Below are positions 6,265-50,315 of a DNA stretch of 64,000 nt, in pieces. Made by a program: the position numbers and the translations under genes. Each line of letters starts with the position of its first letter. Position 1 is the first letter of the stretch. The stretch is taken from NCBI GenBank assembly GCA_032622095.1, contig CP136067.1, forward strand, positions 197,556,052 through 197,620,051, written 5' to 3'. The DNA is from Siphonodentalium dalli. Lineage: Eukaryota > Mollusca > Scaphopoda > Gadilida > Siphonodentaliidae. The notes under the pieces were generated by a model. It was given only the letters and a program-made list of their open reading frames with translations. It had not been told where the DNA came from and did not search any database.

Positions 6265-7842
6265 TTTGTGTCTGATATATTGTGACAGACTACAGTGACC
6301 CTCAGACGAATCGTTTACAGGATGTCAGGAGTTATAACGTGTAACGACCGGATTACTCCGCGGTAATTGTCCGATATTCAGGATCAAAATCTGCGGTATG
6401 CAGGGATTTGATCTGCTGACACAATTTGCATTATCGAGCGAGTCATGTGTCAATACAATGTGCATCGATAAATTGAGGATAGATCATTAGTCAAGGAAAG
6501 TGTGACTCAAAACATGTTACATCAAACATATCTCCATTTACGCACCAATACACTGATCACATTTACATCAACGGGGTTTGAATTCTCCCACGAACGTGCA
6601 AGCGGTATATAAGTCTCCCGGTCTTCTGCGAAAATTGCTCCCCGATAGAGTTACAAGACTGATGAGATATTAATCCACCCGAATATGCAGCAAGTGACAT
6701 TTGGTATCTTGTAATAAACATTAGAACTGTTGCAATTCATGCTCGACATCATAGATAAGACACGTGTATGTATGTACATGTAAGTTCTGTTATTCCACAT
6801 GGCCTAATACGAATTTTGGAGATATGCAGGTAGATCGTATAATATTTATAAATTATTTCGTCTAACTTTCCACTATAAATACTGCTTCTAAACCAGAACA
6901 GTTCCAGATCACAAAAACAACCTAAGATACGATCATGGCGAATTCCACCCGTCAGTACTGATCCATCGCTGATTCTGTGTTTGATGAATAATTCACAATG
7001 TCTGGTCGCCACACAATCCCAAGGTGATATGTAATCCAAGTGTAACGTCGAACGTCAGATGATATCGCAGTGAAGTTGAATGAACTCATACACAGGTGCA
7101 TGTGATATATAGCTGAAGGCACGGCAGTCAACCTTCAGATGACGTCATAACATGTCTATGGTGTTATTATTGCGTGATTTTTTCCCTTTGTGTATCCGAG
7201 GTGTGACCAATTTCACTCACTTATAGTGAACCACCTGTAAAGAAAAAAGCCTACAGTTTGAATAGGCAATAAAAATCCGCTAACAAAACGTGACGCTATC
7301 AATTATCGTTCTACCAGATTGTGCGTCACATATCCAATAATGCCGGCTCATTATCCCCGTTATCGTGATCCAACCATACGGGGCGTATTAACATGTATTA
7401 ACACTTCATCCGAAAGAAGAAAACGTTTCAGAATGGAGTGCGGTGCATATATACTCTGACTTCAATAAGAATTAGTTTATATTGCTCAAAATAGTAATAT
7501 GGACTTCACAAACATCAATGGTAAATTAAACATTCATTCTCATAATGAACACCACCAAACTAATGATCATTTCCGTGTGCAATAACACCACCTGGTAATA
7601 GTTCCCGCACAACGTTTGGCTATGAAACGGATCGCGTTTCGGTTGCGAGCGAAAGGCCATATTTCTCCACCCAAAGGGTTTATAACAGCTTTAAAAATGG
7701 CAACAAAATTGATGTATTTAATTCGTGCACGCGTGTGTGAAAAAAACTAAATTGTTTTTCAAATGGCGCCGTAAAACGTTTCTTTTTCTTGCGTTACACA
7801 CCATATACATGTATTGAGTCAACAGTCGATTCTGGTAAATAT
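6265..7842. other. Intergenic DNA upstream of the GPCR
   Basis: About 1.6 kb, expected to hold the GPCR promoter and 5' UTR. I could not pick a minus-strand TATA or initiator with confidence. The only open frames are under 100 codons and show no motifs. Confidence 0.5.
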
Positions 7843-8607
7843 ATAGGGCCATCTGAGCAGATAGACATCCATTATAGGGCCATCTGAGCAGATATACATC
7901 CATTATAGGGCCATCTGAGCAGATAGACATCCATTATAGGGCCATCTGAGCAGATATACATCCATTATAGGGCCATCTGAGCAGATAGACATCCATATAG
8001 GGCCATCTGAGCAGATATACATCCATATAGGGCCATCTGAGCAGATAGACATCCATATAGGGCCATCTGAGCAGATATACATCCATATACAGTAGGGCCA
8101 TCTGAGCAGATAGACATCCATATAGGGCCATCTGAGCAGATAGACATCCATATAGGGCCATCTGAGCAGATAGACATCCATATAGGGCCATCTGAGCAGA
8201 TAGACATCCATATAGGGCCATCTGAGCAGATAGACATCCATATAGGGCCATCTGAGCAGATAGACATCCATATAGGGCCATCTGAGCAGATAGACATCCA
8301 TATAGGGCCATCTGAGCAGATAGACATCCATATAGGGCCATCTGAGCAGATAGACATCCATATAGGGCCATCTGAGCAGATAGACATCCATATAGGGCCA
8401 TCTGAGCAGATAGACATCCATTATAGGGCCATCTGAGCAGATAGACATCCATATAGGGCCATCTGAGCAGATAGACATCCATTATAGGGCCATCTGAGCA
8501 GATAGACATCCATTATAGGGCCATCTGAGCAGATAGACATCCATTATAGGGCCATCTGAGCAGATAGACATCCATTATAGGGCCATCTGAGCAGATAGAC
8601 ATCCATT
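7843..8607. repeat. 30/31-bp satellite array, about 25 copies
   Basis: Units of GGGCCATCTGAGCAGATA plus GACATCCAT. Copies are 30 or 31 bp depending on one T. The first ~8 copies alternate AGATAGACATCC and AGATATACATCC, a dimeric higher-order pattern; later copies are uniform. Each unit carries the dyad ATCTG-AG-CAGAT. All three minus-strand frames stay open by repetition and are not genes. Confidence 0.96.
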
Positions 8608-11800: not shown

Positions 11801-14800
11801 AGTAGCATCTTAAAGATGTCCGATCAGATCCGAGATATCACCTCACTGAGTATCATCTTAAAGATGTCCGATGTGATGAGAGATATCATCTCACTGAGTA
11901 GCATCTGAAAGATGTCCGATATACGATCAGAGATATCGCCTCACTGAGTAGCATCTTAAAGATGTCCGTTCAGATCAGAGATATCACATCACTGAGTAAC
12001 TTATTAAAGATGTCCGATCCTATCAGAGATATCATCTCACTGATAAGCATCTTAAAGATGTCCGATGCGATCAGAGATATCATCTCACTGAGTAGCATCT
12101 TAAAGATGTCCGATCGGATCCGAGATATCACCTCACTGAGTAGCATATTAAAGATGTCCGATCAGATCCGAGATATCACCTCACTGAGTAGCATCTTAAA
12201 GATGTCCGATACGATCCGAGACATCACCTAACTGAGTAGCATCTTAAAGATGTCCGATCCGATACGAGATATCAGCTCACTGAGTAACATCTTAAAGATG
12301 TCCTATCCGATTCAAGATATCACCTCACTGAGTAGCATATTAAAGATGTCCGATACGATCAGAGATATCACCTCGCTGAGTAGCATCTTAAAGATGTCCG
12401 ATGAGATCCGAGATATGACCTCACTGAGTAGCATCTTAAAGATGTCCGATCCGATCAGAGATATCACATCACTGAGTAACATCTTAAAGATGTCCGATCC
12501 GATCCGAGATATCACCTCGCTGAGTAACACCTTAAAGATGTCCGATCCGATCAGAGATATTACCTCACTGAGTATCATCTTAAAGATGTCCGATCCGATC
12601 CGAGATATCACCTCGCTGAGTAACACCTTAAAGATGTCCGATCCGATCAGAGATATTACCTCACTGAGTAGCATCTTAAAGATGTCCTAGCCGATCCGAG
12701 ATATGACCTCACTGAGTAGCATCTTAAAGATGTCCGATCCGATCAGAGATATCACCTCACTGAGTTGCATCTTAATGATGTCCGATCCGATCAGAGATAT
12801 CACATCACTGAGCAGCATCTTAAGGATGTCCGATCCGATCCGAGATATCACCTCACTGAGTAGCATCTTAAAGATGTCCGATCCGATCAGAGATATCACC
12901 TCACTGAGTATCATCTTAAAGATGTCCGATCCGATCAGAGATATCACCTCACTGAGTATCATCTTAAAGATGTCCGATCCGATCAGAGATATCGCCGCAC
13001 TGAGTAGCATCTTAAAGATGTCAGATCCGATCAGAGATATCACCTCACTGATGAGTAGCATCTTAAAGATGTCCGATCCGATCAGAGATATCGCCGCACT
13101 GAGTAGCATCTTAAATATGTCCGATCCGATCAGAGATATCATCTCACTGAGTAGCATCTTAAAGATGTCCGATCCGATCAGAGATATCACCTCACTGAGT
13201 AGCATCTTAAAGCTGTCCTATCCGATCCGAGATATCTCCTCACTGAGTAGCATCTTAAAGATGTCCGATCCGATCAGATATATCACCTCACTGAGTAGCA
13301 TCTTAAAGATGTCCGATCCGATCCGAGATATCACCTCACTGAGTAGCATCTTAAAGATGTCCGATCCGATCCGAGATATCACCTCACTGAGTAGCATCTT
13401 AAAGATGTCCGATGCGATCCGAGATATCACCTCACTGAGTATCATCTTAAAGATGTCCGATCCGATCCGAGACATCACCTCACTGAGTAGCATATTAAAG
13501 ATGTCCGATGCGATCCGAGATATCACCTCACTGAGTAGCATATTAAAGATGTCCGATCCGAGCCGAGATATCACCTCACTGAGTAGCATCTTAAAGATGT
13601 CCGATGCGATCCGAGACATCACCTCACTGAGTAGCATCTTAAAGATGTCCGATCCGATCAGAGATATCACCTCACTGAGTAGCATCTTAAAGATGTCCGA
13701 TCAGATCCGAGATATCACCTCACTGAGTATCATCTTAAAGATGTCCGATGTGATGAGAGATATCATCTCACTGAGTAGCATCTGAAAGATGTCCGATATA
13801 CGATCAGAGATATCGCCTCACTGAGTAGCATCTTAAAGATGTCCGTTCAGATCAGAGATATCACATCACTGAGTAACTTATTAAAGATGTCCGATCCTAT
13901 CAGAGATATCACCTCAATGATAAGCATCTTAAAGATGTCCGATGCGATCAGAGATATCATCTCACTGAGTAGCATCTTAAAGATGTCCGATCAGATCCGA
14001 GATATCACGTCACTGAGTAGCATATTAAAGATGTCCGATCAGATCCGAGATATCACCTCACTGAGTAGCATCTTAAAGATGTCCGATACGATCCGAGACA
14101 TCACCTAACTGAGTAGCATCTTAAAGATGTCCGATCCGATACGAGATATCAGCTCACTGAGTAACATCTTAAAGATGTCCTATCCGATTCGAGATATCAC
14201 CTCACTGAGTAGCATATTAAAGATGTCCGATACGATCAGAGATATCACCTCGCTGAGTAGCATCTTAAAGATGTCCGATCAGATCCGAGATATGACCTCA
14301 CTGAGTAGCATCTTAAAGATGTCCGATCAGATCAGAGATATCACATCACTGAGTAACATCTTAAAGATGTCCGATCCGATCCGAGATATCACCTCGCTGA
14401 GTAACACCTTAAAGATGTCCGATCCGATCAGAGATATGACCTCACTGAGTAGCATCTTAAAGATGTCTTAGCCGATCCGAGATATGACCTCACTGAGTAG
14501 CATCTTAAAGATGTCCGATCCGATCCGAGATATCACCTCACTGAGTTGCATCTTAAAGATGTCCGATCCGATCAGAGATATCACATCACTGAGTAGCATC
14601 TTAAGGATGTCCGATCCGATCCGAGATATCACCTCACTGAGTAGCATCTTAAAGATGTCCGATCCGATCAGAGATATCACCTCACTGAGTATCATCTTAA
14701 AGATGTCCGATCCGATCAGAGATATCACCTCACTGAGTATCATCTTAAAGATGTCCGATCCGATCAGAGATATCGCCGCACTGAGTAGCATCTTAAAGAT

Positions 14801-17800
14801 GTCAGATCCGATCAGAGATATCACCTCACTGATGAGTAGCATCTTAAAGATGTCCGATCCGATCAGAGATATCACCTCACTGAGTATCATCTTAAAGATG
14901 TCCGATCCGATCAGAGATATCACCTCACTGAGTAGCATCTTAAATATGTCCGATCCGATCAGAGATATCATCTCACTGAGTAGCATCTTAAAGATGTCCG
15001 ATCCGATCAGAGATATCACCTCACTGAGTAGCATCTTAAAGCTGTCCGATCCGATCCGAGATATCTCCTCACTGAGTAGCATCTTAAAGATGTCCGATCC
15101 GATCAGATATATCACCTCACTGAGTAGCATCTTAAAGATGTCCGATCCGATACGAGATATCACCTCACCGAGTAACATCTTAAAGATGTCTGATCCGATC
15201 AGAGATATCACCTCACTGAGTAACATCTTAAAGATGTCCGATCCGATCAGAGATATCACATCACTGAGTAGCATCTTAAAGATGTCCGATCCGATCCGAG
15301 ATATCACCTCACTGAGTAGCATCTTAAATATGTCCGATCCGATACGAGATATCACATCACTGAGTAGCATCTTAAATATGTCCGATCCGATCACAGATAT
15401 CACCTCACTGAGTAACATCTTAAAGATGTCGGATCCGATCCGAGATATCACCTCACTGAGTAGCATCTTAAATATGTCCGATCCGATACGAGATATCATC
15501 TCACTGAGTAACATCTTAAAGATGTCCGATCAGATCCGAGATATCACCTCACTGAGTAGCATCTTAAAGATGTCCGATGCGATCAGAGATATCACCTCAT
15601 TGAGTAGCATCTTAAAGATGTCCGATCCGATCAGAGATATCACCTCACTGAGTAACATCTTAAAGATGTCCGATCCGATCCGAGATATCGCCGCACTGAG
15701 TAGCATCTTAAAGATGTCCGATCAGAGATTTGACCTCACTGAGTAGCATCTTAAAGATGTCCGATCCGATCAGAGATATCACATCACTGAGTAGCATCTT
15801 AAAGATGTCCGATCAGATCAGAGATATCGCCGCACTGAGTAGCATCTTAAAGATGTCCGATCCGATCAGAGATATCACATCACTGAGTAGCATCTTAAAG
15901 ATGTCAGATCCGATCAGAGATATCACATCACTGAGTAGCATCTTAAGGATGTCCGATCCGATCCGAGATATCACCTCACTGAGTGGCATCTTAAAGATGT
16001 CCGATCCGATCAGAGATATCACCTCACTGATAAGCATCTTAAAGATGCCCGATCCGATTCGAGATATCACCTCACTGAGTAACATCTTAAAGATGTCCGA
16101 TCCGATCATAGATATCACCTCACTGATAAGCATCTTAAAGATGCCCGATCCGATCCGAGATATCACCTCACTGAGTGGCATCTTAAAGATGTCCGATCCG
16201 AACAGAGATATCACCTCACTGATAAGCATCTTAAAGATGCCCGTTCCGATCCGAGATATCACCTCACTGAGTGGCATCTTAAAGATGTCCGATCCGATCA
16301 GAGATATCACCTCACTGAGTATCATCTTAAAGATGTCCGATCAGATCCGAGATATCACCTCACTGAGTAGCATCTTAAAGATGTCCGATACGATCAGAGA
16401 TATCACCTCACTGAGTAACATCTTAAAGATGTCCGATCCGATCAGAGATATCACCTCACTGAGTGGCATCTTAAATATGTCCGATCCGATCCGAGATATC
16501 ACCTCACTGAGTAGCATCTTAAAGATGTCCGATACGATCAGAGATATCACCTCACTGAGTAGCATCTTAAAGATGTCCGATCCGATCAGAGATATCATCT
16601 CACTGAGTAACATCTTAAAGATGTCCGATCCGATCAGAGATATCACCTCACTGAGTAGCATCTTAAAGATGTCCAATGCGATCCGAGATATCACCTCACT
16701 GAGTAGCATCTTAAAGATGTCCGATCCGATCAGAGATATCACCTCACTGAGTAGCATCTTAAATATGTCCATTGCGATCAGAGATATCACCTCAGTGAGT
16801 AGCATCTTAAAGATGTCCGATGCGATCCGAGATATCGCCGCACTGAGTAGCATCTTAAAGATGTCCGATCCGATCAGAGATATCACCTTACTGAGTAACA
16901 CCTTAAAGATGTCCGATCCGATCAGAGATATGACCTCACTGAGTATCATCTTAAAGATGTCCGATCCGATCAGAGATATCACCTCACTGAGTAACATCTT
17001 AAAGATGTCCGATCCTATCAGAGATATCACCTCACTGAGTGGCATCTTAAAGATGTCCGATCCTATCAGAGATATCACCTCACTGAGTGGCATCTTAAAG
17101 ATGTCCGATGCGATCAGAGATATCACCTCACTGAGTAACATCTTAAAGATGTCCGATCCTATCAGAGATATCACCTCACTGAGTGGCATCTTAAAGATGT
17201 CCGATGCGATCAGAGATATCACCTCACTGAGTAGCATCTTAAAGATGTCCAATCCGATCAGAGATATCACCTCACTGATAAGCATCTTAAAGATGCCCGA
17301 TCCGATCCGAGATATCACATCACTGAGTGGCATCTTAAATATGTCCGATCAGATCCGAGATATCACATCACTGAGTAGCATCTTAAATATGTACAATGCG
17401 ATCCGAGATATCACCTCACTGAGTAGCATCTTAAAGATGTCCAATCAGATCCGAGATATCACATTACTGAGTAACACCTTAAAGATGTCCGATGCGATCA
17501 GAGATATCACCTCACTGACTATCATCTTAAAGATGTCCGATGCGATCAGAGATATCACCTCACTGAGTATCATCTTAAAGATGTCCGATGCGATCCGAGA
17601 TATCACCTCACTGAGTAGCATCTTAAAGATGTCCGATGCGATCAGAGATATCACCTCACTGACTATCATCTTAAAGATGTCCGATGCGATCAGAGATATC
17701 ACCTCACTGAGTAGCATCTTAAAGATGTCCGATGCGATCCGAGATATCGCCGCACTGAGTAGCATCTTAAAGATGTCCGATGCGATCAGAGATATCACCT

Positions 17801-18502
17801 CACTGACTATCATCTTAAAGATGTCCGATGCGATCAGAGATATCACCTCACTGACTATCATCTTAAAGATGTCCGATCCGATTAGAGATATCACCTCAGT
17901 GAGTAGCATCTTAAAGATGTCCGATGCGATCCGAGATATCGCCGCACTGAGTAGCATCTTAAAGATGTCCGATGCGATCAGAGATATCACCTCACTGAGT
18001 ATCATCTTAAAGATGTCCGATCCGATTAGAGATATCACCTCACTGAGTAACATCTTAAAGATGTCCGATCAGATCCGAGATATCACCTCATTGAGTAGCA
18101 TCTTAAAGATGTCCGATCCGATCCGAGATATCACCTCACTGAGTAGCATCTTAAAGATGTCCGATCCGATTCGAGATATCGCCGCACTAAGTAGCATCTT
18201 AAAGATGTCCAATGCGATCAGAGATATCACCTCACTGAGTAGCATCTTAAAGATGTCCGATCAGATCAGAGATATCACCTCACTGAGTAGCATCTTAAAG
18301 ATGTCCGATCCGATCGCGATATCACCTCACTGAGTAGCATCTTAAAGATGTCCGATCCGATCGCGATATCACCTCACTGAGTATCATCTTAAAGATGTCC
18401 GATCCGAGATATCACCTCACTGAGTAGCATATTAAAGATGTCCAATCAGATCCGAGATATCACCTAACTGAGTAGCATCTTAAAGATGTCCGATCAGATT
18501 TT
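8831..18502. repeat. 48-bp satellite, ~9.7 kb, about 200 copies with higher-order structure
   Basis: A continuous array of a 48-bp unit: GATGTCCGATC, a GATC/CCGA-rich stretch, GAGATATCACCTCACTGAG, then TAGCATCTTAAA. Unit variants are 45 bp (CTGATAAGC) or 51 bp (CTGACGAGTAGC). As 48 is 16 codons, one plus-strand frame reads MSDPIRDITSLSSILK repeatedly, and a minus-strand frame reads KMLLSEVISRIGSDIF. The longest open stretch is 867 codons at 15730-18333. Both strands are open and frames are broken wherever indels or point stops fall, as expected of a satellite without coding constraint. Each unit contains the dyad CATCTT-A-AAGATG and the palindrome GATATC. The organisation is locally dimeric near 8.9-9.6 kb, with a 1.88-kb superrepeat further on. 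Confidence 0.97.
11908..15160. repeat. Higher-order duplication of ~1.88 kb inside the 48-bp satellite
   Basis: Marker variants recur at a constant offset. The stop-containing unit ending 11908 recurs at 13785. The unit reading MSVQIRDITSLSNLLK at 11962 recurs at 13839. The unit at 12250 recurs at 14127. All offsets are 1877 bp, about 39 units. Past about 12.55 kb the offset drops to 1781 (12703 to 14484), because the second copy lacks two monomers. Confidence 0.85.
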
Positions 18503-19899: not shown

Positions 19900-22060
19900 C
19901 AATCTAAAAAAATTTGCTGTCAAACTTTTCAGAATGTTTTTGGATATAATGATCATTACTCTTCAAAATAAAAAAATGGGCCACCTTGAAAATGTCCTTG
20001 AATTCAAGATGGCTGCCAAAATCCAAGATGGCCGCCATAAGGCCAATTTTCCTATCTTGTATCACATTGATGGTTTTGAATTTAGGTTTTATCACCATGA
20101 AACCTTAATATATGCATGACCAAACTGTTGTCAGATAACAGCCTGATAAAAACACTAACAATCCAACCATATTGATGATGATTTTGATCCAAAATGGCCG
20201 CCAAAATCCAAAATGGCCTCCATAAGGCCAAGTTTCCTATCATGTGTAATGTTGCTGGGACTGAAAGTTAGTCTTATCAGCACGAAACATTGACGTATGT
20301 ACATAATAATTATTCTTAGATGATGAATTAATCAAAAAAACTAATATATTAACCACATTAATGATGAATTTATTTCAAAATGGCCGCCAAATCCAAAATG
20401 GCTGCCATAAGGCCAATTTTCCTATCTTGTATCACATTGATGGTGCTGAATTTAGGTTTTATCAGCATGAAACCTTAATATATGCATGACTAAACTGTTG
20501 TCAGATGATAACTTGATATAAACGCTAACAAACCAACCATATTGGTGATGATTTTGATCCAAAATGGCAGCCAAAATCCAAAATGGCCACCATAAGGCCA
20601 ATTTCCTTTCATGTGTAATGTTGCTGGGACTGAAAGTTAGTCTTATCAGCATGAAACATTGATGTATGTACATCTTAATTATTCTTAGATGAATTAATCA
20701 AAAAACTAATATATTAACCACATTAATGATGAATTTTTTTCAAAATGGCCGCCAAAATGGCTGCCATAAGGCCAATTTTCCTATCTTGGATCACATTGAT
20801 GGTGCTGAATTTAGGTTTTATCAGCATGAAACCTTAATATATGCATGACTAAACTGTTGTCAGATGATAACTTGATAAAATCACTAACAAAACAACCATA
20901 TTGATGATGATTTTGATCAAAAATGGCCACCACAATCCAAAATGGCCACCATAAGGCATGTGTAATTTTGCTGGGACTGATAGTCTTATCAGCATAAAAC
21001 ATTGATGTGTGTACGTCTTAATTATTCTTAGATGATGAATTAATAATAAAAAACTAATATAATAACAACCATTAATGATGAATGTTATTTCAAAATGGCC
21101 ACCAAAATCCAAAATGGCCACCATAACAGGCCATAAGGCCAATTTTCCTATCATTGTTGCATATATTGCTGGGTCGGAAAGTTAGTCTTGTCAGCATGAA
21201 ACATTGATCAATGTACGTCTTAATTGTTCTTAGATGATGAATTAATAACTGATACTAATAAATTAACTGTATTAATGATGAATGTTAGTCCAAAATGGCC
21301 ACCAACATCCAAAATGGCCACCATAAGGCCAATTTTCCTGTCATGTGTAATGTTGCTGTGACTGAAAGTTAGTCTTAGCAGCATGAAACAGTGATGTGTG
21401 TATGTCTTAATTATTCTTACATGATGAATTCATAACAAAACTAAAAAGTTGACCACAATGATAATGAATGTTATTTCAAAATGGCCACCAAAATCCAAAA
21501 TGGCCGCAATTTGTTTAATTTTCCTATCATGTGTAAATGCTGGGACTGAAAGTTGGCCTTGTCAGCATGAAACCTTGATGTATGTATGTTTTAAGAGTTC
21601 TTAGATGGTGAATTAATATAAAAAACCTAATAAAATGACCACATTGATAATAAATATTATTTCGAAATGGCCGCCAAAATCCAAAATGGTCGCTATATGT
21701 TCAATATTCCTAACATGTGTAATATTGCTGTGACTTGAAAATTAGTCTTATCAGTATGACAAATGTATGTATGTATGTCTTAATTGTTCTTAAATTATTA
21801 ATTAATTAAAAAAAATTATCACATTATTAATGAATTTTATTTCAAAATGGCTGCAAAAATCCCAAATGATGAATTAATAAAAACAACTAATAAATTGACC
21901 ACATTAAGGATTGATGTTATTTCAAAATGGCTGCCAAAATCCAAAACGGACACCATATGGTAAATATTTGTATCATGTGTTATGTTGTTGGAACTGAAAT
22001 TTAGTCTTATCAGCATGAAATATTGATGTATGTATGTCTTAACGATGGTCGATCTCTTCA
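19900..22060 (+). repeat. Left arm: about 11 tandem ~190-bp units
   Basis: Each unit reads: two AAAATGGCCGCC-like motifs separated by AAAATCC, then ATAAGGCCAATTTTCCTATC, GTAATGTTGCTGGGACTG, GTCTTATCAGCATGAAAC, and ATTCTTAGATGATGAATT. Divergence rises toward the inner end. Confidence 0.88.
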
Positions 22061-22627
22061 TATAACAAGTTTTATATAGTTTCATGGGTATAAAATAATA
22101 AATATGAATATAACACATCTGTTCGGAAATGTATAGAACTATCAATTGATTTTGATTTTATTTGTAATAATTTGTTATGCGATGATTAAATGGGACATAC
22201 ATTTGTTACTATTTTAGAACAGACCGTTCAGACGATATCAGGTAGCGATTATTCGAGTTTACCCATTGCACCGAACGTCAAATGTCCCAGATTGATTGTT
22301 TGTTGTATTCGATATCTATATGCGATAATGAGTCTAATTAGCGTTTATTTATGACAAAATTACACAATGCCATTTCTGGCTGTAGAGGGCAAGCCGAGGG
22401 ATTTAGTCATGCAAAAAGTAATATCAAAGATTGCTGTTGGCGGCCATATTTTTCATTGAAATTCAGAAAAAATATTACAGCTTCAATGAAGTTTGGTGAT
22501 TTGTGCAGAGGGGAGTAAATGTTTAGCGAAATATATAGGCGACAGTTCTACCGAATTGACACCTGCTGGTTCGTGGAGGGTTACGATGACGATATGATGA
22601 AGATCGCGACGACATTGATTATATGTG

Positions 22628-22715
22628 GTGGTGATGATGATGATGATGATACCGATGATTATTATTATGACAATGAAATTGGTGATGATCACGGTGATGA
22701 TGAAAATATTCATTA
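22628..22715. repeat. GAT-rich low-complexity stretch
   Basis: Imperfect (GAT)n with TAT and GGT interruptions; it makes Asp- or Met-rich open frames. Confidence 0.8.
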
Positions 22716-23088
22716 TGGCGCGCGCTGTACATGTATATTTTGTACATTCAAAATTTCTTCATTCTATCTATCTTTTGTATTTAATTTCATTTTCTCGTGT
22801 CAAATTGGATCAGAGACTAAAGCAATTATGACGACAATATTCACTGAGAACAACACTTTACCCGCCATACCTCTTCCCAAAAATGGCAGTGTGATCAAGT
22901 CCTATAGGGAGAGAATGTTGGCGATAATTGACACCCTTGAATTGCAGCACATCTTCGTTCGTGTTGAAGAGGCCATCAACAGCAAACTTCTGATAATGTC
23001 ATGGATAGAGCATGGAACATAGTATGAGATTGATCCTTCTGACATACGCCTTCGCTCAAATACGCATTATCACTGACTCACAGCCTTA

Positions 23089-23260
23089 TTGGATCCATCC
23101 ATCCAGCCCGTTCCATTTTTAGTGCTACATGTCAAAGTTCTGGAGTAGCATTCCATGTTTGGAATTCATGAAAATTCAAAAGCTCCATCTATGGAATGCT
23201 ACTCCAGAACTTTGACCTGTAGCACTAAAAACAACCGGAACGGGGCTGTATGGATCCAAT
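23089..23260. mobile_element. 172-bp snap-back element
   Basis: Two arms of about 70 bp start at TTGGATCCAT and share TTTTTAGTGCTACA, GTCAAAGTTCTGGAGTAGC and ATTCCAT, with a ~35-bp loop. It lies near the centre of the 6-kb foldback element and may be a nested MITE. Confidence 0.8.
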
Positions 23261-24329
23261 ATGACCACGACCCAGTGCAAAGGCTTATTAGGCCGTCTCA
23301 AACATGGTGGACGAAGGTTAGCCACATGCGTTATGTCAGCAGCTTCTACATAGAATCCAGAAAATGAATTATCTGAAGATATCAGTCATAAGAAAAAAAT
23401 TGGACTGTTAATAAAAACCCCTTTGTTCCTCGAAGACAACCTGTTCTGATATCTGCGGTGCCCAAACGCCCATACACCATGGATGAGTTAGTCGATATCC
23501 ATGTGCATTGATATAGCGCTTCCAAAATGTGGAGCCAGAGAGCCGTACGAGATCAAATTGGGAGTCAGTGAGTGGGACATTAAACAATCGTTCATCACAA
23601 TATTCCTAAAGAGCTTCAAATTTTGCACATTTTATTTTTATTTTGGATGACCCTGTTTCCACGAAATGACGTGAAACAAATAAAGTATAAAATCGACGGA
23701 CTCAAATCCACTGTTCGAAATGAATTAAAACTCGTGAAAAACAGCAGCAGATATCAGACAGGATTTCGGCATCCATGAAAGAAGACATATTTATGACTGG
23801 CCTGAAATTTCTTGATAGCAGTTAGTTTGATAATGGCTTATAAGTGCTCACTGGTCTCGCGTATTGGAATTGTCCGATCGCGCGCAGGAGACTAATGCTA
23901 TCAATGATTGGTGTGACCATGTAAAATACATGGAATACATGGATTTTACATACAGAAATTACATGCAAGTGTGTATCCACCCTTAAGCAGTTTCTTTTCC
24001 AAAAGGGATGTGATTGTTCTCTGATTCTACACATATAAACTCATTATAACTGGCATGGTATTATAGGATGGAAGTGAAAGAAATTACTTAGACAACCACA
24101 TTCCACTTGTCAAATAATTTTATATATGACGACCATGTAGTCAGTACAAAGTGTATTTCATGATGTATTACCATGTATCGGTGTTCACGAGATGTTTTCT
24201 ACAACAGAGTGTCACTTACTAGTTTCCACATAATGTATGAGTGGCCATCATTTGTGTATTTTTAATCACGATTACATGGGTTTTCAATCACAAATGCAGC
24301 AATGACGTAGCCTTATGGTGGCCATGGAC

Positions 24330-25915
24330 GTATATATACATCGCTGTGGTGGCCAACTTGGATTATGGTGCCCATTTTGAAATAACTTTCATCATTAATA
24401 TGGCCAGTTTATCAGTTTTTTTTACTGATTCATAATCCAAAAACAATTAAGACATACATCCATCAAAGTGGCATGCTGATAAGACTAATTTTCAGTTCCA
24501 GCAACATTACACTTGTTAGAACAAATTGACCACATGGTTCCCATTTGGGATATTGGTGGCCATTTTGAAATAATATTCATTATTAATGCGGTCATTTGAT
24601 TATGTTTTATTAAATTAAATTCATCATCTGAGAACAATTTAGACATACAAAATTGGCCTTATGGTGGCCATTTTGAATTTTAGCTGTCATTTTGAAATAA
24701 CATTCATCCTTTTTTGGTCAATTTATTAGTTTTTTATTTTATCAATTCATCATCTAAGAACAATGAAGACATACATGCATCAATGTTTCATGCTGCTAAG
24801 ACTAACTTTCAGTCCCAGCAACATAACACACGATAGGACAATTGACCATATGGCGTCCGTTTTGGATTTTAGCTGCCATTTTGAAATAACATTCATCCTT
24901 TAGTTTATTTTTCAATTCATTATCTAATAACAATTTAGACATACAACATCAATGTTTCACGCTGATAAGAATAACTTCCAGTCGCAGCAACATTTCACAG
25001 GATTGAAAAAATTGGCCATATTGCGGCCATTTTGGACTTTGGCGGCCATTTTGAAATACCACCAATCCTTAATGTGGTCAATTTATTAGTTATTTTATTA
25101 TTTCATCATTTAAGAAAAATTAAAACATACATACATCAATGTTTTATGCCGCTAAGACTAAGATTCAGTCCCAGCAACATAACAAATGAAAGGAAAATTT
25201 ACCATATGGCGTCCATTTAGGATTTTGTCGGCCATTTTGAAATAACATTCATATTTTGTTGTGGTCAATTTATTACTTGTTTTCATTAATTCATCATCTA
25301 AGAACTATTAATACATACATACTTACATCAATGTTTCATGTTGCTAAGACTAATTTCAGTTGCAGAAACATTACACATGATTGAAAAATTGACCATATGG
25401 TGGCCATTTTGTATTTTGGCGGCCATTTTGAAATAATATCCAACCTTAATTTGGTAATGTTATTAGTTATTTTATTAACTGATCATTTAAGAACAATTAA
25501 GACATACATACATAAATGTTTTATGCTGATAAGACTAACTTTCAGTCCCAGCAACATTACACATGATAGGAAAATTGGTCTTATGGCGCCATTTTGGATT
25601 TTGGTGGCCATTTTGGATCAAAATCATCATCAATATGGTTGGATTGTTAGTGTTTTTATCAAGACATCACCTGACAACAGTTTAGTCACGCACATATCAA
25701 GGTTTCATGGTGATGAAACTAAACTTCAACACCATCAATGCGACACATGATAAGAAAATTGGCCTTATGGCGGCCATTTTGGATTTTGGCGGCCATCTTG
25801 GATTCAAGGACATTTTCAAGGTGGCCCATTTTTTTATTTTGAATTGTAATGATCATTCTATGCAAAAACGTTCTCAAAAGTTTGACAGCAAAATCTTTTA
25901 GATTTTCTCTGGCAT
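24330..25915 (-). repeat. Right arm: about 8 tandem ~190-bp units, inverted
   Basis: Reverse complement of the left-arm unit family. The outermost 150 bp (25740-25915) is the best match to the left end, and similarity decays inward. Confidence 0.85.
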
Positions 25916-29480: not shown

Positions 29481-29625
29481 GTATCTCACACTCATTCTAT
29501 TATAGACGTAATTTATCAACCTCGTCCACTAAATTCTATTTGAGCCTCGGTAAACCACGGCTCAAATCGAATTTAGTGAACTCGGTTGATAAATTCCGTA
29601 TAAAATAGAAACTCATGTGAGATCC
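29481..29625. mobile_element. 145-bp hairpin MITE
   Basis: Inverted arms of about 65 bp; ends GTATCTCACACTCAT/ATGAGTGAGATCC-type, inner AATTTATCAACC and CACTAAATTC paired with their complements, short loop near GGTAAACC. Confidence 0.8.
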
Positions 29626-30220
29626 TCTATGTATGACGTTTATATAAATAGGAGAGTGTTGCACATCGACTGATTTGTGTTGGCCTCTTAACAGCCGATT
29701 ACGACAATAATGCTTTAGGCCCACCGATCTACTGTGCAACAAAAGTGCTCCCCAAATTAAAAAATTAGAGCGTCGTATTAGTTAATAATTGGTGACGTTA
29801 CAAAATCAGATATAGCCTATATACGACCCAAAGCGGCTTTGGTTCGTTATTAGGTTAGTACTATTTTCGTGACGTATTTTTATATGCAAATTGCGCAGGT
29901 AACCATGGACGTTAACCGACCTGAATGACATTGTGCTATTGGGACGTCTTTATCGTCCATAATTCACCGAAATTGATACAAAATTCGTAATCGGATATGT
30001 TTTTTCGCCCTTAAACATCTACAAATCATTAGCTAACGGCCGGCTTAGAATAACTATTAAAAAACACAAACGAACTATTTCGCTCTAAGCTGCACTCCGG
30101 GTTTTCACGTCATGAATAATAATTAGTTTTCTAATTAGAATTTAAAACTGAGGAAAATGACAGATTTACCTCACAAAATGCAAGTTTTCTGCGATGGATA
30201 AATAAAATTATCTAGCCCAT
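29626..30220. other. Spacer
   Basis: No supported gene. Short open frames only. Confidence 0.45.
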
Positions 30221-30332
30221 GTAGTCTCTAAAACTGTTTGTGTCCGCTCGGGGGATTTGGCATCTATTGGACATAGCCTCGCCCAATAGATGATCAAATC
30301 CCCTTCACGGACATAACAGTTTAAGCGACGAC
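30221..30332. mobile_element. 112-bp hairpin MITE
   Basis: Arms of about 50 bp share AAACTGTT(T/A)(G/T)GTCCG, GGGGATTTG and CATCTATTGG with their complements on the right. The loop is near CATAGCCTC. Confidence 0.78.
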
Positions 30333-30345
30333 ACTAGGTACATAT

Positions 30346-31073
30346 TCTATTATATATTTTGGAAGATCTGTCTGTGTCTGTGTGTTCGCGATGGACTCGA
30401 AAACGGCCGAACCGATTTCGATGAAACTTGGTATGTGGGGGTATTTTCGGCCGAGAACTGGCATAGGCCTATTAATTTGTCCGTGCGACGTGACCTTGAC
30501 CTTGATCGGGTAATTTCAAGGTCAAACGCCCGAATATCTCGGGATTTAGATGAAACTTGGTATGTGGGGGTACTTTCGGCCGAGGGGTGACATGAGCCTA
30601 TTAATTTGCCTGTGCGACGTGACCTTGACCTTGAAATCTGGTCATTCCAAGGTCAAACGCCCGAATATCACGGGATTTCGATGAAACTTGGTATGTGGGG
30701 GTACCTTCGTATGGGGAGTCTCATAAGCATATTCATTTGCCCGTACGACGTGACCTTGACCTTGACATCGGGTCAATTCAAGGTCAAATCGCCAATTTTG
30801 ATGGGATTTCGAAGAAATTTTATACATAGGGTTACTTTTGTCCACCGAGTGCTTTGGACGGGTCAAATCGTGACCCCGACATGACCTTCACCTTCAAAAT
30901 GATCAATTCAAGGTCAAATCGGGTAAAACCGGATGGATTTCGACGGGCCCGTTTGTCGGGTACTTTTGTCCGGGCAGTGTTTTGGACGGGTCAAATCGTG
31001 ACCCCACTTGACCTTGGCCTTCAAAATAGACAATTCAAGGTCAAAGCCCGGACGAAGTCGGGTCACCTTCTAG
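30346..31073 (+). mobile_element. Non-autonomous Helitron, copy 1
   Basis: Starts TCTATTATATATTTTGG and ends CACCTTCTAG followed by T. Eleven bases before the end a short stem CCC-GAC/GTC-GGG around GAA is visible. TC start, 3' hairpin and CTRR end are Helitron hallmarks. There is no Rep/helicase frame, so it must have moved in trans. The interior repeats a ~131-bp module three times (TTTCGATGAAACTTGGTATG, GTGCGACGTGACCTTGACC). Each module carries TGACCTTGACCTTGA and most carry TTCAAGGTCAAA. Here the 5' flanking base is T, not the usual A. Confidence 0.82.
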
Positions 31074-31075
31074 TT

Positions 31076-31316
31076 CTATATATAACCGCAGGCTCTATAC
31101 GTAAACAACTGCCTGATACGCAATTCTCATTCTCTATACTATCAACCGTGCATATCGGCGCTCAATATAATTATATAGTTTAGGCCATTCATTTCCGGAA
31201 TAGCTACTATTTACGGTATTACATCATTGGGATTTTCCGTGAACCTAGGTAGTCAATTAACCAAAAAAACAATAATTGTCTCACGAACAAGCATAGGTGT
31301 TTAGATAACATTAACC
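31076..31316. other. Spacer
   Basis: About 240 bp with nothing recognised. Confidence 0.4.
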
Positions 31317-31409
31317 CTTAAAGTGATGTGAAACACACCGGTAGGTTGATCAAATAGAAATTATTTTTTTGTTATGAATATTAATCCAAATTGAAAGCAC
31401 ACGCTGTCA
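31317..31409 (+). repeat. Old dispersed repeat, copy 2, first piece
   Basis: Matches 1424-1532 (CTTAAAGTGA(C/T)GTGAAACAC, GATGATCAAATAGAAAT-like blocks). It is cut at GTCA by the Helitron starting at 31410; the rest of the repeat resumes near 34375. Confidence 0.72.
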
Positions 31410-32319
31410 TCTATTATATATTTTGGAAGATCTGTTTGTTTGTGTGTTTGTAATCGATGGACTCGAAAATGGCCCAGCCGATTTCGATGAAACTTGGTAT
31501 GTGGGGGTATTTTCGGGTCAGGACCAACATAGGCCTATTAATTTGTCCGTGCGAGGTCAACTTTTCACGTGCCGAGGTCAAATCTGTTTTTACGCCGTTT
31601 TGCGCTAATATATTTCAGTTCGGTGCTTACAAATCGATTCGAAACAGCGCGAATAATAACATGCCAGTCATAATAATGACACTATGAGAATCTTTCGTGT
31701 TTCCTCTTTCCAACGATATATAATATGTATGTATCCGTTTTAGTTATCTGCCTCAATTATTAAGAAGAAGTGGTACGATCTTCTATCAGGGTAAAAACAA
31801 TGCGTAACTTCTATGACGTCGTTAGAGGTCATAAAGTTAGATCACGTTAACTCTTAACCTGCCGATGCATTTGACTGTTTCAGACGTCTTGGCGATATCT
31901 CGGGCACCGATGGTAATTTATCTTTACGTTGAAACTTGATAATTAATGAGCGTGTGTATATGAGGCGCGTTTATATACTTCAGTGGAAATCATATCGGGT
32001 TAAACTGGCGGATTTTTACGGACGAAATTTGATGCATAGGGTATCTCGGTATCCGCTGGGCCGATTTCCCGGTATCCGCTGGGCCGATTTCCACCATTTT
32101 TTGGGTGTTGGTGTTTGACCCCACCTGACCTTGACCTTCAAAATGGTCAATTCAAGGTCAAATCGGGTAAAACCGGATGGATTTCGACGGGTACTTTTGT
32201 CGGGTACTTTTGTTCGGGCACTGTGTTTTGGACGGGTCAAATCGTGACCCCACTTGACCTTGACCTTCAAAATGGACAATTCAAGGTCAAAGCCCGGACG
32301 AAGTCGGGTCACCTTCTAG
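31410..32319 (+). mobile_element. Non-autonomous Helitron, copy 2, with ~400 bp of unrelated interior
   Basis: Starts TCTATTATATATTTTGG after a flanking A and ends CACCTTCTAG before a flanking T, with the same 3' stem. This is the A-to-T insertion preference of Helitrons. The first 170 bp and the last ~330 bp match the other copies; about 31590-31985 does not. Helitrons are known to gain host DNA between their ends, so this may be captured sequence. The middle shows no clear exon. Confidence 0.82.
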
Positions 32320-32325
32320 TTATTA

Positions 32326-33215
32326 TATATTAACTAGAATGCACTCACTGGAGCTGCCTATACTTGCGCCTATCACACGTTTGGCATGTGCTGTGGTGTC
32401 TTGCCAACAACAGTACTGTTTGAACCACGGGTGCTGGTCCCTCGTTTGAGAGATCGATAAACAATCTGGATATCAAATTTCAGTTCATCCATCGCTGAAA
32501 TATTTGTGTGTAGGGACAGAATATCTCTGTTATCTCCAGTTGATCTATTACACTAATGATGGTCTTAGTAATACCGTACGATTTGTTTGACATATTTATA
32601 GAACAATATAGACATCGCTGATATGAAGGGTGTGAAGACGATTGGTTGCCGATGATGTTATATATTATATACCAATATGGGTTAAATTACTAGTTTGACT
32701 AGAATGATTTGTGTATGCCATTGCAATTCAGCGGCAAAACCCATCCAAGTCAATTACAAATACCAACACAGTAACAGTAACAGACACGTTAGTCTTTGAT
32801 TAAAAGTGTGTAAATGTGAAGATGCCCTTAGCGACTGATCTACAGTCTTCGGGAACATATCATCAAAATGTCTCTTGCGTTGAGAATGAGAAAGCTTGTT
32901 TTCCCAGTTAATAAATAAGGCATTTTAATAATCCATGTTTCCACATTCACATTTTCCAGTGTAATTGTTTCTCAATTGAACCATGCGCTCGACTGTTTGG
33001 CCGGACATGGTTTATACATATGCACCAGGATCTTTCGGAAATGTTTTGAACTTCGAAGAAAGTTTCCAGAAATATGTTCGCACCTCACTGTCTCTGCGGA
33101 AAAAAAAAGATTCCGCACGCTTTTAGACTTGATCTCAACTAATTTCCCGAGTTTCAAGTAAAATAGGCTTCTAATGGGCAGTATTATTGCCCACTTTTAT
33201 TTTCCATGCAGGGTA
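32326..33215. other. Inserted or spacer DNA between Helitrons
   Basis: By comparison with 1424-1778, the block from about 32337 to 34374 is absent from the related repeat copy, so it is inserted DNA. Its ends were not resolved. No gene seen. Confidence 0.4.
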
Positions 33216-33953
33216 TCTATTATATATTTTGGAAGATCTGTGTGTCTGTGTGTCTGTGTGTGTGTGTGTTCGCGATGAACTCGAAAACGGCCCACCCGAT
33301 TTCGATGAAACTTAGTATGTGTGGGTATTTTCGGCAGGGGGGAGACATAGGCCTATTGATTTGCCCGTGCGACGTGACCTTGACCTTGAAATCGGGTAAT
33401 TTCAAGGTCAAACGCCCGAATATCACGGGATTTCGATGAAACTTGGTATTTGGGAATATTTTCGGCCGGGGAGTGGCTTAGGCCTATTACTTTGCCCGTG
33501 CGACGTGACCTTGACCTTGAAATCGGGTCATTTCAAGGTCAAACGCCCGAATATCACGGGATTTCGATGAAAAATGGTATGTGGGGATACTTTCGTGTGG
33601 GGAGTCTCATAAGCCTATTCATTTGCCCGTGCGACGTGACCTTGAAATTGGGTCAATTCAAGGTCAAATCGCGAATTTTGATGGGATTTCGACGAAATTT
33701 GATACATAGGGTTACTTTTGTCCACTGGGTGTTTTGGACGGATCGAGTCGTGACCCCGGCCTGACCTTGACCTTCAAAATGATCAATTCAAGGTAAAATC
33801 GGGTAAAACCGGATGGATTTCGACGGGTACTTTTGTAGGGTACTTTTGTCCGGGCAGTGTTTTGGACGGGTCAAGTCGTGACCCCACCTGACATTCACCT
33901 TCAAAATGGACAATTCAAGGTCAAAGCCCGGACGAAGTCGGGTCACCTTCTAG
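33216..33953 (+). mobile_element. Non-autonomous Helitron, copy 3
   Basis: 738 bp, TCTATTATATATTTTGG after A and CACCTTCTAG before T, with the 3' stem intact. Close in length and order to copy 1, with the same ~131-bp internal modules and TGACCTTGACCTTGA sites. A GT-rich run follows the 5' end (33240-33270). Confidence 0.87.
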
Positions 33954-34374
33954 TATATATATATTTATAATAATAAAACACGAAGCTGTTGGCAGATGGA
34001 TCGGTTTAGCCTGCCGGTGTAATACGAGTCTCAGTTGTCTGGACATCGACGCAATCATGTCTGGTGTTTTGCGCGCCCTGTGACGTCCTGATGTGCGTCG
34101 TGACGTCATGGCGTCTTTATCGGTTTCTAGAAAGAAATCTTTCAATATTGTTCTTTTATGAACGATTTATTACCAAAATAAAACCAGATAACAATGCAAT
34201 TTGTGTATATACGTGAATTTAATTTACAATTGGTGCAACCATTTCATAATAGCGCATGTGCATTCTTTAGACTATGTACTTCCGGTATGACGTAACATAT
34301 TCACGGAAGGACAGATAAACAGATAAACAGATATACGGACCGAAAACATTACTTGCGCCCAGCATTGACTGGCG
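33954..34374. other. Spacer with a short 3' hairpin
   Basis: Contains CAGATAAACAGATAAACAGA and, at 34351-34380, ACTTGCGCC/GGCGCAAGT around an 11-base loop, next to the point where the old dispersed repeat resumes. It may be the end of an unidentified inserted element. Confidence 0.4.
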
Positions 34375-44743: not shown

Positions 44744-45243
44744 GTAGCTGGTGGACCCGACTTCGTCCGGGATGTTCCCCTCTGATTTTCGGAGAATTGC
44801 GCGATTTAACCTTGAATTGACTATTTTAAAGGTGAAGGTCATGTCGGGGTCACGATTTGACCCGTCCAAAACACTCCCCGGACAAAAGTCACGACAAAAG
44901 TACCCGTCGAAATCCGCCCGGCTTTACCCGATTTGACCTTGAATTGACAATTTTGAATGTCAAGATCAGGTCAGGGTCATGATTTGACCCACCCGAAACA
45001 CTCCTGGGACAAAAGTAAAAGTAGGTATCACATTTCGTTGAAATACTTCCGTTTTACCAGATTTGACCTTGAATTGATCTTTTTGAATGTCAAAGTCAGG
45101 TCGGAATCAAGATTTGACCCGTCCGAAATACTCCCTGGAAATAATTTCCCCTAGGTATCAAATTTCGTCAAATCTGTCAGGCAGTTTTCCCGGCCATAGC
45201 TAACAGACAAACAGACAGACAAATGTCCAAAATATATATTAGA
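44744..45243 (-). mobile_element. Non-autonomous Helitron, copy 4 (minus)
   Basis: On the minus strand it starts TCTAATATATATTTTGG and ends CCCGGACGAAGTCGGG...CAGCTAC, where CTAC replaces CTAG. The interior has three diverged TTCAAGGTCAAAT modules. Its 5' TC is directly joined to the 3' CTAG of copy 5. More diverged than copies 1 and 3. Confidence 0.75.
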
Positions 45244-45621
45244 CTAGCTGATATACTCGACTTCGTTCGGGCTAGTTAGGGATTTTTTTGTGATCGCCTC
45301 CATCTGGACAGTACCCAGTATATACAGCGTCTGGCCAAACTATTGTTCAATTGGTCCAGAAACATGCCTATATCAGCACGTTCGAGAACATGGTCCCACG
45401 TGAAATTGGACCCGTCCATATTGCTCCCGGGATCGAAGTAGTCCTACACACAATTTTTTAGTCGGATCGGTCAAGGTCCAGAAACATGCCTATGAGCGAG
45501 GTCAAGTTGACACGTTAAATACCAAATTCGAGCAGTGTTAGAGTCTATAACACATGCACACATGCATTCATGCATACACACATTCATACATACAGACAGG
45601 TGTTTCAAAATGTATAATCGA
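45244..45621 (-). mobile_element. Non-autonomous Helitron, copy 5 (minus), abutting copy 4
   Basis: Minus strand: flanking A, then TCGATTATACATTTTGAAAC at the 5' end and TATATCAGCTAG at the 3' end after a CCCGAACGAAGTCGAG stem. It lacks most of the TCAAGGTCA modules. The next base on the minus strand is the TC of copy 4, a head-to-tail junction. Confidence 0.7.
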
Positions 45622-47658: not shown

Positions 47659-48426
47659 CACTAATGTACTGTATGAACGATGTAAAACAACATGGTAATT
47701 ATAATGTACTCTATGAACGATGTAAAACAACATGGTGATTATAATGTACTCTATGAACGATGTAAAACAAAATGGTAATTATAATGTACTGTATGAACGA
47801 TGTAAAACAACATGGTAATTATAATGTACTCTATGAACGATGTAAAACAACATGGTAATTATAATGTACTCTATGAACGATGTAAAACAACATGGTAATT
47901 ATAATGTACTCTATGAACGATGTAAAACAAAATGGTAATTATAATGTACTGTATGAACGATGTAAAACAACATGGTAATTATAATGTACTCTATGAACGA
48001 TGTAAAACAACATGGTAATTATAATGTACTCTATGAACGATGTAAAACAAAATGGTAATTATAATGTACTGTATGAACGATGTAAAACAACATGGTAATT
48101 ATAATGTACTCTATGAACGATGTAAAACAACATGGTAATTATAATGTACTCTATGAACGATGTAAAACAAAATGGTAATTATAATGTACTCTATGATCGA
48201 TGTAAAACAACATGGTAATTATAATGTACTGTATGAACGATGTAAAACAACATGGTAATTATAATGTACTCTATGAACGATGTAAAACAACATGGTAATT
48301 ATAATGTACTCTATGAACGATGTAAAACAACATGGTAATTATAATGTACTCTATGAACGATGTAAAACAACATGGTAATTATAATGTACTCTATGATCGA
48401 TGTAAAACAACATGGTAATTATAATG
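47659..48426. repeat. 40-bp satellite I, about 19 copies
   Basis: Units of AATGTACTCTATGAACGATG followed by TAAAACAACATGGTAATTAT. Variable positions (C/G in ACT(C/G)TATG; C/A in CAA(C/A)ATGG) recur in a partly periodic order, suggesting three- to four-unit higher-order copies. Confidence 0.97.
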
Positions 48427-48774: not shown

Positions 48775-49027
48775 TTATGCCACAGGGGGCTCCATTAGGC
48801 GAAGGGCGTCTCGGATGAACATGCTAAGATTGGTGAGGATTCTTTTATTTGTGCACGTGAAGAGGGCATTTAGTTTGTGGGCATTGGGACGCGTGTAATA
48901 GTATGATTTTAGATATTTTCGTCTCAAATCGCGGAGATTTTACATTTGAGTATATGATATGGTATTCATCACCAAGTTCAACGTCATATAGCGTGCACTT
49001 TCGATCGGAGTAGTTTTTTTTGCCCAC
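48775..49027 (-). pseudogene. LINE ORF2 C-terminal fragment
   Basis: Minus-strand frames give RKCTLYDVELGDEYHIIYSN, then in another frame YYYTRPNAHKLNALFTCTNK and LTNLSMFIRDALRLMEPP before a stop. This C..C...(G)DE.H...C, YY.RPN..K, L.NL..FI order is common at the C-terminus of animal LINE polyproteins. At least one frameshift is present. The 5' side is cut by the 40-bp satellite at 49026. Confidence 0.7.
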
Positions 49028-49345
49028 GATCCGGATTCGATTGTTAGTTATACTAGCTCGCTTACACGATCCGGATTCGATTGTTAGTTATACTAGCTCG
49101 CTTACACGATCCGGATTCGATTGTTAGTTATACTAGCTCGCTTACACGATCCGGATTCGATTGTTAGTTATACTAGCTCGCTTACACGATCCGGATTCGA
49201 TTGTTAGTTATACTAGCTCGCTTACACGATCCGGATTCGATTGTTAGTTATACTAGCTCGCTTACACGATCCGGATTCGATTGTTAGTTATACTAGCTCG
49301 CTTACACGATCCGGATTCGATTGTTAGTTATACTAGCTCGCTTAC
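49026..49345. repeat. 40-bp satellite II, 8 identical copies
   Basis: Eight perfect copies of ACGATCCGGATTCGATTGTT followed by AGTTATACTAGCTCGCTTAC. Unrelated to satellite I despite the same unit length. Each has the palindrome ATCCGGAT. The absence of any difference indicates very recent expansion or homogenisation (or an assembly choice). Confidence 0.98.
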
Positions 49346-50315
49346 ACGCGGTTCGTTGTGTACGTGTGTGTATTTAGCTCCCATTCTTCACTTATATATT
49401 AATTTTTTTATTGGTTAACTTGTTGAATATAGTTGGAGATGGCTCCATGAATGTCTGATTTAAGTACAGCATCTTTTTTAAACTGTGTGTTTTGTTTTTA
49501 GAAATCTATACAGTATTTACTATTTTGTTTTTATCAGTGACAGGGTTTTATTTTTTATTTATGTTTTAATATGTTAGTTGTATACATGCATGCATGTACT
49601 TCTACTTTATGAACTTAATTATTGCAAGTAAGTATTATTAAATGCGCTTTTAAATGTAAATATACTAATACCAATAATGGAAATGTTCAAGCTGTTTTCA
49701 CTATTTTACACAGAAGTCAGATATACTATATTAATTTAGCTATATCATCAAGACACACTTTTCAATTGAATGTTTTAAAACGATCTGTATTTTGCTGTGT
49801 TAGGAAAAAATAAATTAATGGGTGTATAATAAATACCTGTACTCTGTGACTGTGTTAGGCCGATTTAGTACTCCTGATACCACAATAAGAACACTATTAA
49901 AGAAAACGCCACGTTTACAGTGTAAGTATAATGATATTTTGTTATCAGGGGAAATTATGAAGAATGAAGATGCGCCGAATGATACGGGACATCGAGTGGT
50001 GAGACATATGCCATTGATTTGTGTCAATCGAGTGATATTTGTACGCTATATATCATTGCATACAATGTCCTATCCTTGTCATCATGGGTTTCTCCAATCC
50101 CAAATCAACTGGAGCACCGCTCTGTAGCAAAAAGCAATCATTCCGTTTAATTGATTCCTGATTTTTTAGTTGTACTCGCGGATGCTCAAAGCAAAATGAA
50201 CTAAAGAACGGAAACCGTACCGCAACGTAACCTCTGGTTGCTAAGTTAATTGCGGAAGGACTATTCCTAAGTATCATATTAGCTATAGTTCTCGCTATTC
50301 GTACACTGAGAAAAT
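49346..50315. other. Spacer
   Basis: T-rich DNA with small frames; the 101-codon plus frame at 49822-50127 has no motif. No supported gene. Confidence 0.4.

Follow-up and report, generated by a model that had tools for sequence, protein, structure and literature searches.

Helitron-like copies and their module arrays

A window of 64,000 nucleotides from the scaphopod Siphonodentalium dalli (contig CP136067.1, positions 197,556,052 to 197,620,051 of the forward strand) was analysed; in its segment 30346-33953, a non-coding mobile element is present three times, each time in the same orientation. Judged by their ends and internal organization, the copies belong to the short non-autonomous Helitrons, and their centre is an array of modules of 125-131 bp. 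Most modules carry the nine-base word TCAAGGTCA, which fits published nuclear receptor sites and falls within the part of the module that has changed most slowly. An earlier sequence-only reading of this segment had described the copies as Helitrons. All three full copies have TC at the 5' end, CTAG at the 3' end and, at a distance of 11 nt from that end, a palindrome of 16 nt. The coordinates of that reading were confirmed, and the copies and their parts are as follows:

30346-31073, plus strand: Helitron-like copy 1, 728 bp; 5' end TCTATTATATATTTTGG, GT-rich microsatellite, three type-A and two type-B modules, 3' palindrome, CTAG; 10 perfect TCAAGGTCA; flanks T^T
31410-32319, plus strand: Helitron-like copy 2, 910 bp; ends as in copies 1 and 3; part of module 1, about 550 bp of unshared sequence, part of module 4, module 5 (type B); 4 perfect TCAAGGTCA, double site absent; flanks A^T
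33216-33953, plus strand: Helitron-like copy 3, 738 bp; five-module order as in copy 1; 10 perfect TCAAGGTCA; flanks A^T
about 44744-45243, minus strand: diverged, older copy 4; three type-B modules, 3' palindrome as in copies 1-3, end CTAC; 2 perfect TCAAGGTCA
45244-45621, minus strand: related element with ends TCGATTATACATTTTG ... CCCGAACGAAGTCGAG ... CAGCTAG, of the same type as the copies; no perfect TCAAGGTCA
30414-31058, plus strand: array of copy 1; type A at 30414-30542, 30543-30673, and 30674-30804; type B at 30805-30931 and 30932-31058
33298-33938, plus strand: array of copy 3; type A at 33298-33428, 33429-33559, and 33560-33684; type B at 33685-33811 and 33812-33938
30491-30505, minus strand: double site TCAAGGTCAAGGTCA, a direct repeat of AGGTCA at zero spacing (DR0); four others start at 30620, 30751, 33375, and 33506
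30515-30526, plus strand: first right-arm site TTCAAGGTCAAA; copies 1-3 have nine more, beginning at 30777, 30907, 31034, 32151, 32280, 33401, 33532, 33657, and 33914
33926-33953, plus strand: 3' end of copy 3, palindrome CCCGGACGAAGTCGGG followed by 11 nt ending in CTAG; identical letters at 31046-31073 and 32292-32319

Copies 1-3 begin with TCTATTATATATTTTGGAAGATCTG, followed by the GT-rich microsatellite, and end with GCCCGGACGAAGTCGGGTCACCTTCTAG. Canonical Helitrons, according to the part of PMC4067079 used here, have a 5' TC, a 3' CTRR and a palindrome of 16-20 nt about 11 nt from the 3' end. All three copies start with TCTATTATAT and end with CTTCTAG, and in all three the imperfect 16-nt palindrome CCCGGACGAAGTCGGG is present, the predicted hairpin of which is weak and no better than shuffled sequences (-3.3 kcal/mol, z -0.33). 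At the occupied sites, copy 1 is flanked by T^T and copies 2 and 3 by A^T; canonical Helitrons insert between A and T and do not duplicate the target, and the HINE/Helentron type inserts at TT. HINE/Helentron elements are characterized by subterminal inverted repeats of 11 bp or more, which the 70-bp ends of copies 1-3 lack, the best repeats there measuring 8-9 bp with one mismatch. No match to a Rep/helicase transposase was obtained among the 9 frames scanned of 78 in the window, and stop-to-stop open frames touching copies 1-3 reach at most 124 aa. No Rfam family was detected at gathering score in the window. Three sub-threshold Rfam matches to structured RNAs in 30200-34100 (the best with E 0.0022 and 25.8 bits, where the cut-off is 65) were regarded as chance.

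In copies 1 and 3, three type-A modules (125-131 bp) are followed by two type-B modules (127 bp), and when the elements are aligned, the modules of copies 1 and 3 line up number by number. A tree of the modules gave clusters by position across copies for modules 1, 3, 4, and 5 (support 0.755, 0.869, 0.774, and 0.975), the cluster of module 5 including copy 2; the two modules 2 remained unpaired. The array therefore predates the transposition of these copies. The consensus sequences of types A and B are identical at 33 of 37 columns of a core, compared to 51 of 90 columns in the remainder. The modules go back to a single ancestral unit, whose core of 37 bp has the consensus TGACCTTGACCTTCAAAATGGTCAATTCAAGGTCAAA. 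Within the core, a left and a right site are opposed around a short spacer. From this anatomy it appears that the number of sites was raised by tandem duplication within the element and by transposition.

Copy 4, which is located outside the region covered by the earlier reading, is about 22% diverged from its counterpart modules outside the core. At 45243-45244, two Helitron-like elements abut head to tail without an intervening base; CTAG closes the first, and the next, copy 4, starts with TCTAAT. A stretch of about 550 bp inside copy 2 (31566-32113) has no counterpart in copies 1 and 3 and is possibly captured DNA or a nested insertion.

Number and conservation of the receptor-like word

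All 26 perfect TCAAGGTCA sites in the window are located inside copies 1-4 (10, 4, 10, and 2, respectively). Thus, the figure of at least eight for copy 1 in the sequence-only reading was an undercount. The comparison with shuffled sequence that had been suggested there yielded a mean of 0.57 sites per window and a maximum of 2 in 100 shuffles, and 0.007-0.011 sites were expected per copy (2000 shuffles each). In copies 1-3, TCAAGGTCA is the most frequent strand-collapsed 9-mer (24 occurrences), and the next seven 9-mers overlap it. The shorter GGTCA occurs 20, 15, 17, and 9 times in copies 1-4, compared to shuffle means of 1.3-2.0. For TCAAGGTCAAGGTCA, five copies were found in the window, all from one repeat family, while a composition model predicts 0.0001 in 64 kb.

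The distribution among modules is less uniform than first described. The double site TGACCTTGACCTTGA had been attributed to each module, but it is present in five of the ten modules of copies 1 and 3, namely modules 1-3 of copy 1 and modules 1 and 2 of copy 3. 'Each' is too strong, because module 3 of copy 3 lost one hexamer of the double site and modules 4 and 5 represent the second type, which is devoid of it. The right-arm site TTCAAGGTCAAA is more widespread, being present in eight of these ten modules and, across the four copies, in 12 of 15 that were compared.

Raw counts make the case look stronger than it is, and shuffling provides a weak null, since each match is multiplied whenever the module is duplicated in tandem or the element transposes. 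Under the composition model, a random 131-bp module contains one given 9-mer with P ~0.001, but any of 500 unrelated 9-mers with P ~0.39. Enrichment alone therefore says little, as one matching module suffices to seed every site. The words could be functionless passengers, which arose in the ancestral module by chance or by a short duplication of the hexamer TGACCT plus an inverted copy and were multiplied thereafter. The restriction of all sites to one repeat family is in line with such an origin, as is the finding that ~39% of random modules would hold one of about 500 such words, and the loss of a hexamer in module 3 of copy 3 resembles slippage. Pure passengers should decay like their neighbours, however, and for this reason the conserved right arm described below weighs against this explanation, which we consider somewhat unlikely.

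To compare rates of change, 16 module stretches were aligned and 15 compared, omitting a part module of copy 2 (31480-31587). The tree was calculated from 14 modules, omitting also the partial module 4 of copy 2. The element 45244-45621 was kept out of the alignment because it has no clear module. Among 119 nine-base windows, those most often intact are frames of the right arm that overlap one another, with 13 of 15 modules for CAAGGTCAA and AAGGTCAAA and 12 for TCAAGGTCA and TTCAAGGTC. The only two windows that performed better than TCAAGGTCA overlap it at a shift of one or two bases. In the left arm, TGACCTTGA is intact in 8 of 15 modules and occupies rank 13 of 119.

On the 14-module tree, the 12-mer TTCAAGGTCAAA showed 0.25 changes per column, the lowest value of 116 windows, compared to 1.39 for the whole module. 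When CpG columns were removed (module mean 1.16), three other windows of 108 were as low as TTCAAGGTCAAA or lower. Between types A and B, all pairs of modules, which are non-independent, differ by 3.2% in the right arm, 7.9% in the left arm, and 51% outside. For copy 4 and its counterparts, the values are 6.0% (5/84) for the right arm and 22.3% (139/623) outside (P=0.00015 with copy 4 reused, tests of this kind being anti-conservative). The motif highlighted by the sequence-only reading therefore falls in the slowest-changing part of the module, a property that could not be checked in that reading. Since TTCAAGGTCAAA was retained while the rest of the module diverged, selection probably acted on the mobile lineage to keep it. 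The finding is of somewhat more interest than a count of motifs, because the word is conserved.

A number of observations weigh against such selection. The bare TCAAGGTCA is not the single slowest window on the tree, since 7 of 119 windows change as little or less (10 of 102 once CpG columns are removed); for the left double site TGACCTTGACCTT the corresponding numbers are 9 of 115 and 13 of 106. The P values are optimistic, because four copies from one window were used and the modules share ancestry. Furthermore, an aligner that anchors on conserved words can inflate the contrast with the flanks. The related element at 45244-45621 has similar ends and no perfect TCAAGGTCA, and copy 2 is without most of the array; hence, the array is not strictly needed. 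Finally, the more recent comparison between copies 1 and 3 gave a marginal difference: the core shows 10 changes at 180 positions compared to 49 at 459 outside (P=0.048), the right arm 2 at 60 (P=0.10) and the left arm 4 at 59 (P=0.49). Loss of sites at the neutral rate had been named in the sequence-only reading as a result that would speak against a function. When sites were masked exactly, 3.2% of the positions differed compared to 9.7% elsewhere (P=0.048; 0.066 without CpG columns), and to this extent slower loss was seen; masks allowing one or two mismatches gave P=0.24-0.38 (six masks overall, 0.048-0.38), so that the outcome is mixed. Retention this marginal is also compatible with passengers.

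As recent loss of sites is not clearly slower, a constraint, if there is one, seems to bear on the mobile lineage. A signal that is strong over long divergence times but weak among the resident copies may reflect constraint on the source lineage of the element, but it may also be due to small numbers or to alignment anchoring.

Candidate readers of the word and alternative roles

Published consensus sequences agree with the assignment of the word to NR5A and ERR receptors in the sequence-only reading. The consensus for Esrrb is TCAAGGTCA (PMC8451941, in the part consulted), and NR5A2 binds as a monomer to TCAAGG(C/T)CA (PMC11102866, likewise). All 26 perfect sites match this NR5A/ERR pattern by sequence, the consensus being derived from vertebrates. 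A third candidate was overlooked: NR6A1/GCNF, for which DR0 of AGGTCA is a high-affinity arrangement according to the vertebrate data in the relevant part of PMC10909835. The overlapping pair in TCAAGGTCAAGGTCA, AGGTCA AGGTCA without spacing, corresponds by sequence to this pattern. Since the 9-mer has changed less than its surroundings, it is probable that something binds to it. As invertebrate counterparts of these receptors we assume FTZ-F1, ERR, and HR4, the latter (HR4/GRF) for NR6A1.

We tentatively favour, at somewhat less than even confidence, a Helitron lineage under selection for TTCAAGGTCAAA, which would be read by a host receptor of the NR5A/FTZ-F1, ERR, or NR6A/HR4 type to aid movement. 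According to this proposal, an ancestral module with the 37-bp core would have been multiplied by tandem duplication within the element and subsequently by transposition. The most likely candidate reader would be a nuclear receptor present in the germ line or early embryo, and its binding could open chromatin or drive transcription, which would help the element to move. Effects on host genes, if any, would be a by-product.

The opposed arrangement of left and right sites could have another meaning, in that the sites serve as arms of an inverted repeat forming a hairpin or cruciform; a single-strand fold would matter in rolling-circle transfer. Of the six type-A cores, three were folded, and each gave a strong hairpin (z -3.98, -3.51, and -4.37), with perfect arms of 13 bp in two. 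Across the 15 modules, outer arms pair in 94.7% of cells compared to 14.5-54.2% for slid partners, and inner arms in 80.3% compared to 10.4-53.9%. For type B the picture was divided, since two of four folded segments exceeded shuffles (z -4.29 and -2.74) and the other two did not (z -0.29 and 0.72). However, no changes on both sides of a pair were detected in two possible helices (0/13 and 0/9 pairs), in which pairing was the same as in shuffles, or in the structure predicted by RNAalifold (0/7). Moreover, the left arm changes while the right arm stays nearly fixed. Because no pair with a compensatory change was found, a selected hairpin is not the first choice, and together with the fixed right arm this favours sequence recognition of the right arm over selection for pairing. 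We regard the hairpin as very improbable.

Recognition of the sequence could also be brought about by the transposition machinery itself. In other rolling-circle replicons, iterons beside a stem-loop origin are read, and the array could be iteron-like, its word being read by the Rep/helicase of the Helitron or a partner. This would be consistent with one conserved word repeated in direct and inverted orientation, with a right arm fixed in place and orientation, and with a constraint fitting the mobile lineage rather than resident copies. In copies 1-3 the last perfect TCAAGGTCA adjoins the 3' palindrome, ending 3 bases upstream of it. In copy 4, by contrast, about 35 bases separate the palindrome from the last word, which is degraded, and the neighbouring element with similar ends manages without a perfect copy of the word. 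In addition, no transposase was found in the scanned frames, and a literature search joining Helitron, iteron, and transposase found nothing. An iteron-like array appears to be unlikely. We give a similarly small chance to a combination of both ideas, in which an NR5A/ERR/NR6A site would be kept iteron-like in every module and recruit a germ-line or embryonic receptor or the transposase for transposition. If it applies, the host would inherit dense arrays of DR0 and extended half-sites wherever the element lands.

A word that is nearly fixed while the module around it changes by half offers a concrete and cheap functional test. If a receptor binds, the element becomes a candidate for supplying ready-made response elements of nuclear receptors, in an animal beyond the mammalian and fly cases.

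Other features of the window were recorded as well. A 400-aa open frame on the minus strand (5122-6324) matches 7tm_1, the rhodopsin-type G protein-coupled receptors (E 9.8e-25), which is in keeping with an animal host; the repeats are of a kind that may suggest a mollusc. A 48-bp tandem array of about 201 copies at 8838-18499 is open over long stretches in several frames. At 19905-25900, an inverted-repeat structure with 313-nt arms, 90% complementary and 5.4 kb apart, contains 186/370-bp tandem repeats in its arms and resembles a foldback-type element; the arms touch the edge of the searched stretch and may extend further. A short foldback palindrome is located at 29495-29610 (57-nt arms, 84% complementary, 2 nt between). 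Short-period arrays with 96-100% copy match are present at 1-1208 (26 bp), 7841-8606 (30 bp), 47662-48426 (40 bp), 49025-49348 (40 bp), and 56583-57813 (22 bp).

Relation to known elements

No report of this array was found in the literature searches made, which covered one library, and a literal match of one of its sequences in one paper turned out to be a primer. Other papers with matching sequences concern, by their titles, grape berry colour, yeast and DNA replication, and the thyroid hormone receptor of Crassostrea gigas. Relatives of the module were not present among 128 viral and prokaryote loci listed, which have no bearing on animals and consist of 9 viral contigs matching TGACCTTGACCTTGAAAT and at least 119 prokaryote stretches matching TGACCTTGACCTTGA. 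The nine viral TGACCTTGACCTTGAAAT loci contain two to three TCAAGGTCA each. Patterns for the 3' end, module type A, the site plus palindrome, and the paired core matched no viral contig. Searches with nhmmer at E values up to 10 yielded two hits (E 0.35 and 0.55).

The tandem repeats in the centre of Helitrons have generally been regarded as satellite-like cargo. Non-autonomous Helitrons/Helentrons with central satellite-like arrays, Cg_HINE and Helitron-N_Cgi, are described from oyster in the consulted parts of PMC7492417, PMC8268682, and PMC11136912. As in the copies analysed here, the left end is followed by a short microsatellite, a short satellite-like array, and a 3' palindrome. The monomers listed include lengths of 134 and 164-166 bp, and, as here, two repeat clusters occur in consecutive order. 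The oyster elements differ by subterminal inverted repeats of 11-12 bp; here the best measure 8-9 bp, one mismatch included. Neither 'transcription factor' nor 'nuclear receptor' appears in the main text of PMC8268682, and 'transcription factor' and 'binding' are absent from that of PMC11136912.

For the spreading of sites, two systems are comparable. The ISX Helitron of Drosophila miranda (PMC4384637, in the sections available) distributes ready-made sites for a host regulator, the MSL recognition motifs. In that case, functional binding to the MSL complex and host selection were demonstrated, whereas the present comparison is one of sequence. In the mouse two-cell embryo, SINE B1 is a mobile family with TCAAGG(C/T)CA that is bound by NR5A2 (PMC11102866). 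It is a mammalian retrotransposon with demonstrated binding, and a tandem array or a double site is not mentioned in the portion of that paper considered. Since array-bearing Helitrons of oyster and a site-spreading Helitron of Drosophila have been described, the element from S. dalli is of a known kind, and the conserved receptor-like word in its modules is a variant feature of that kind.

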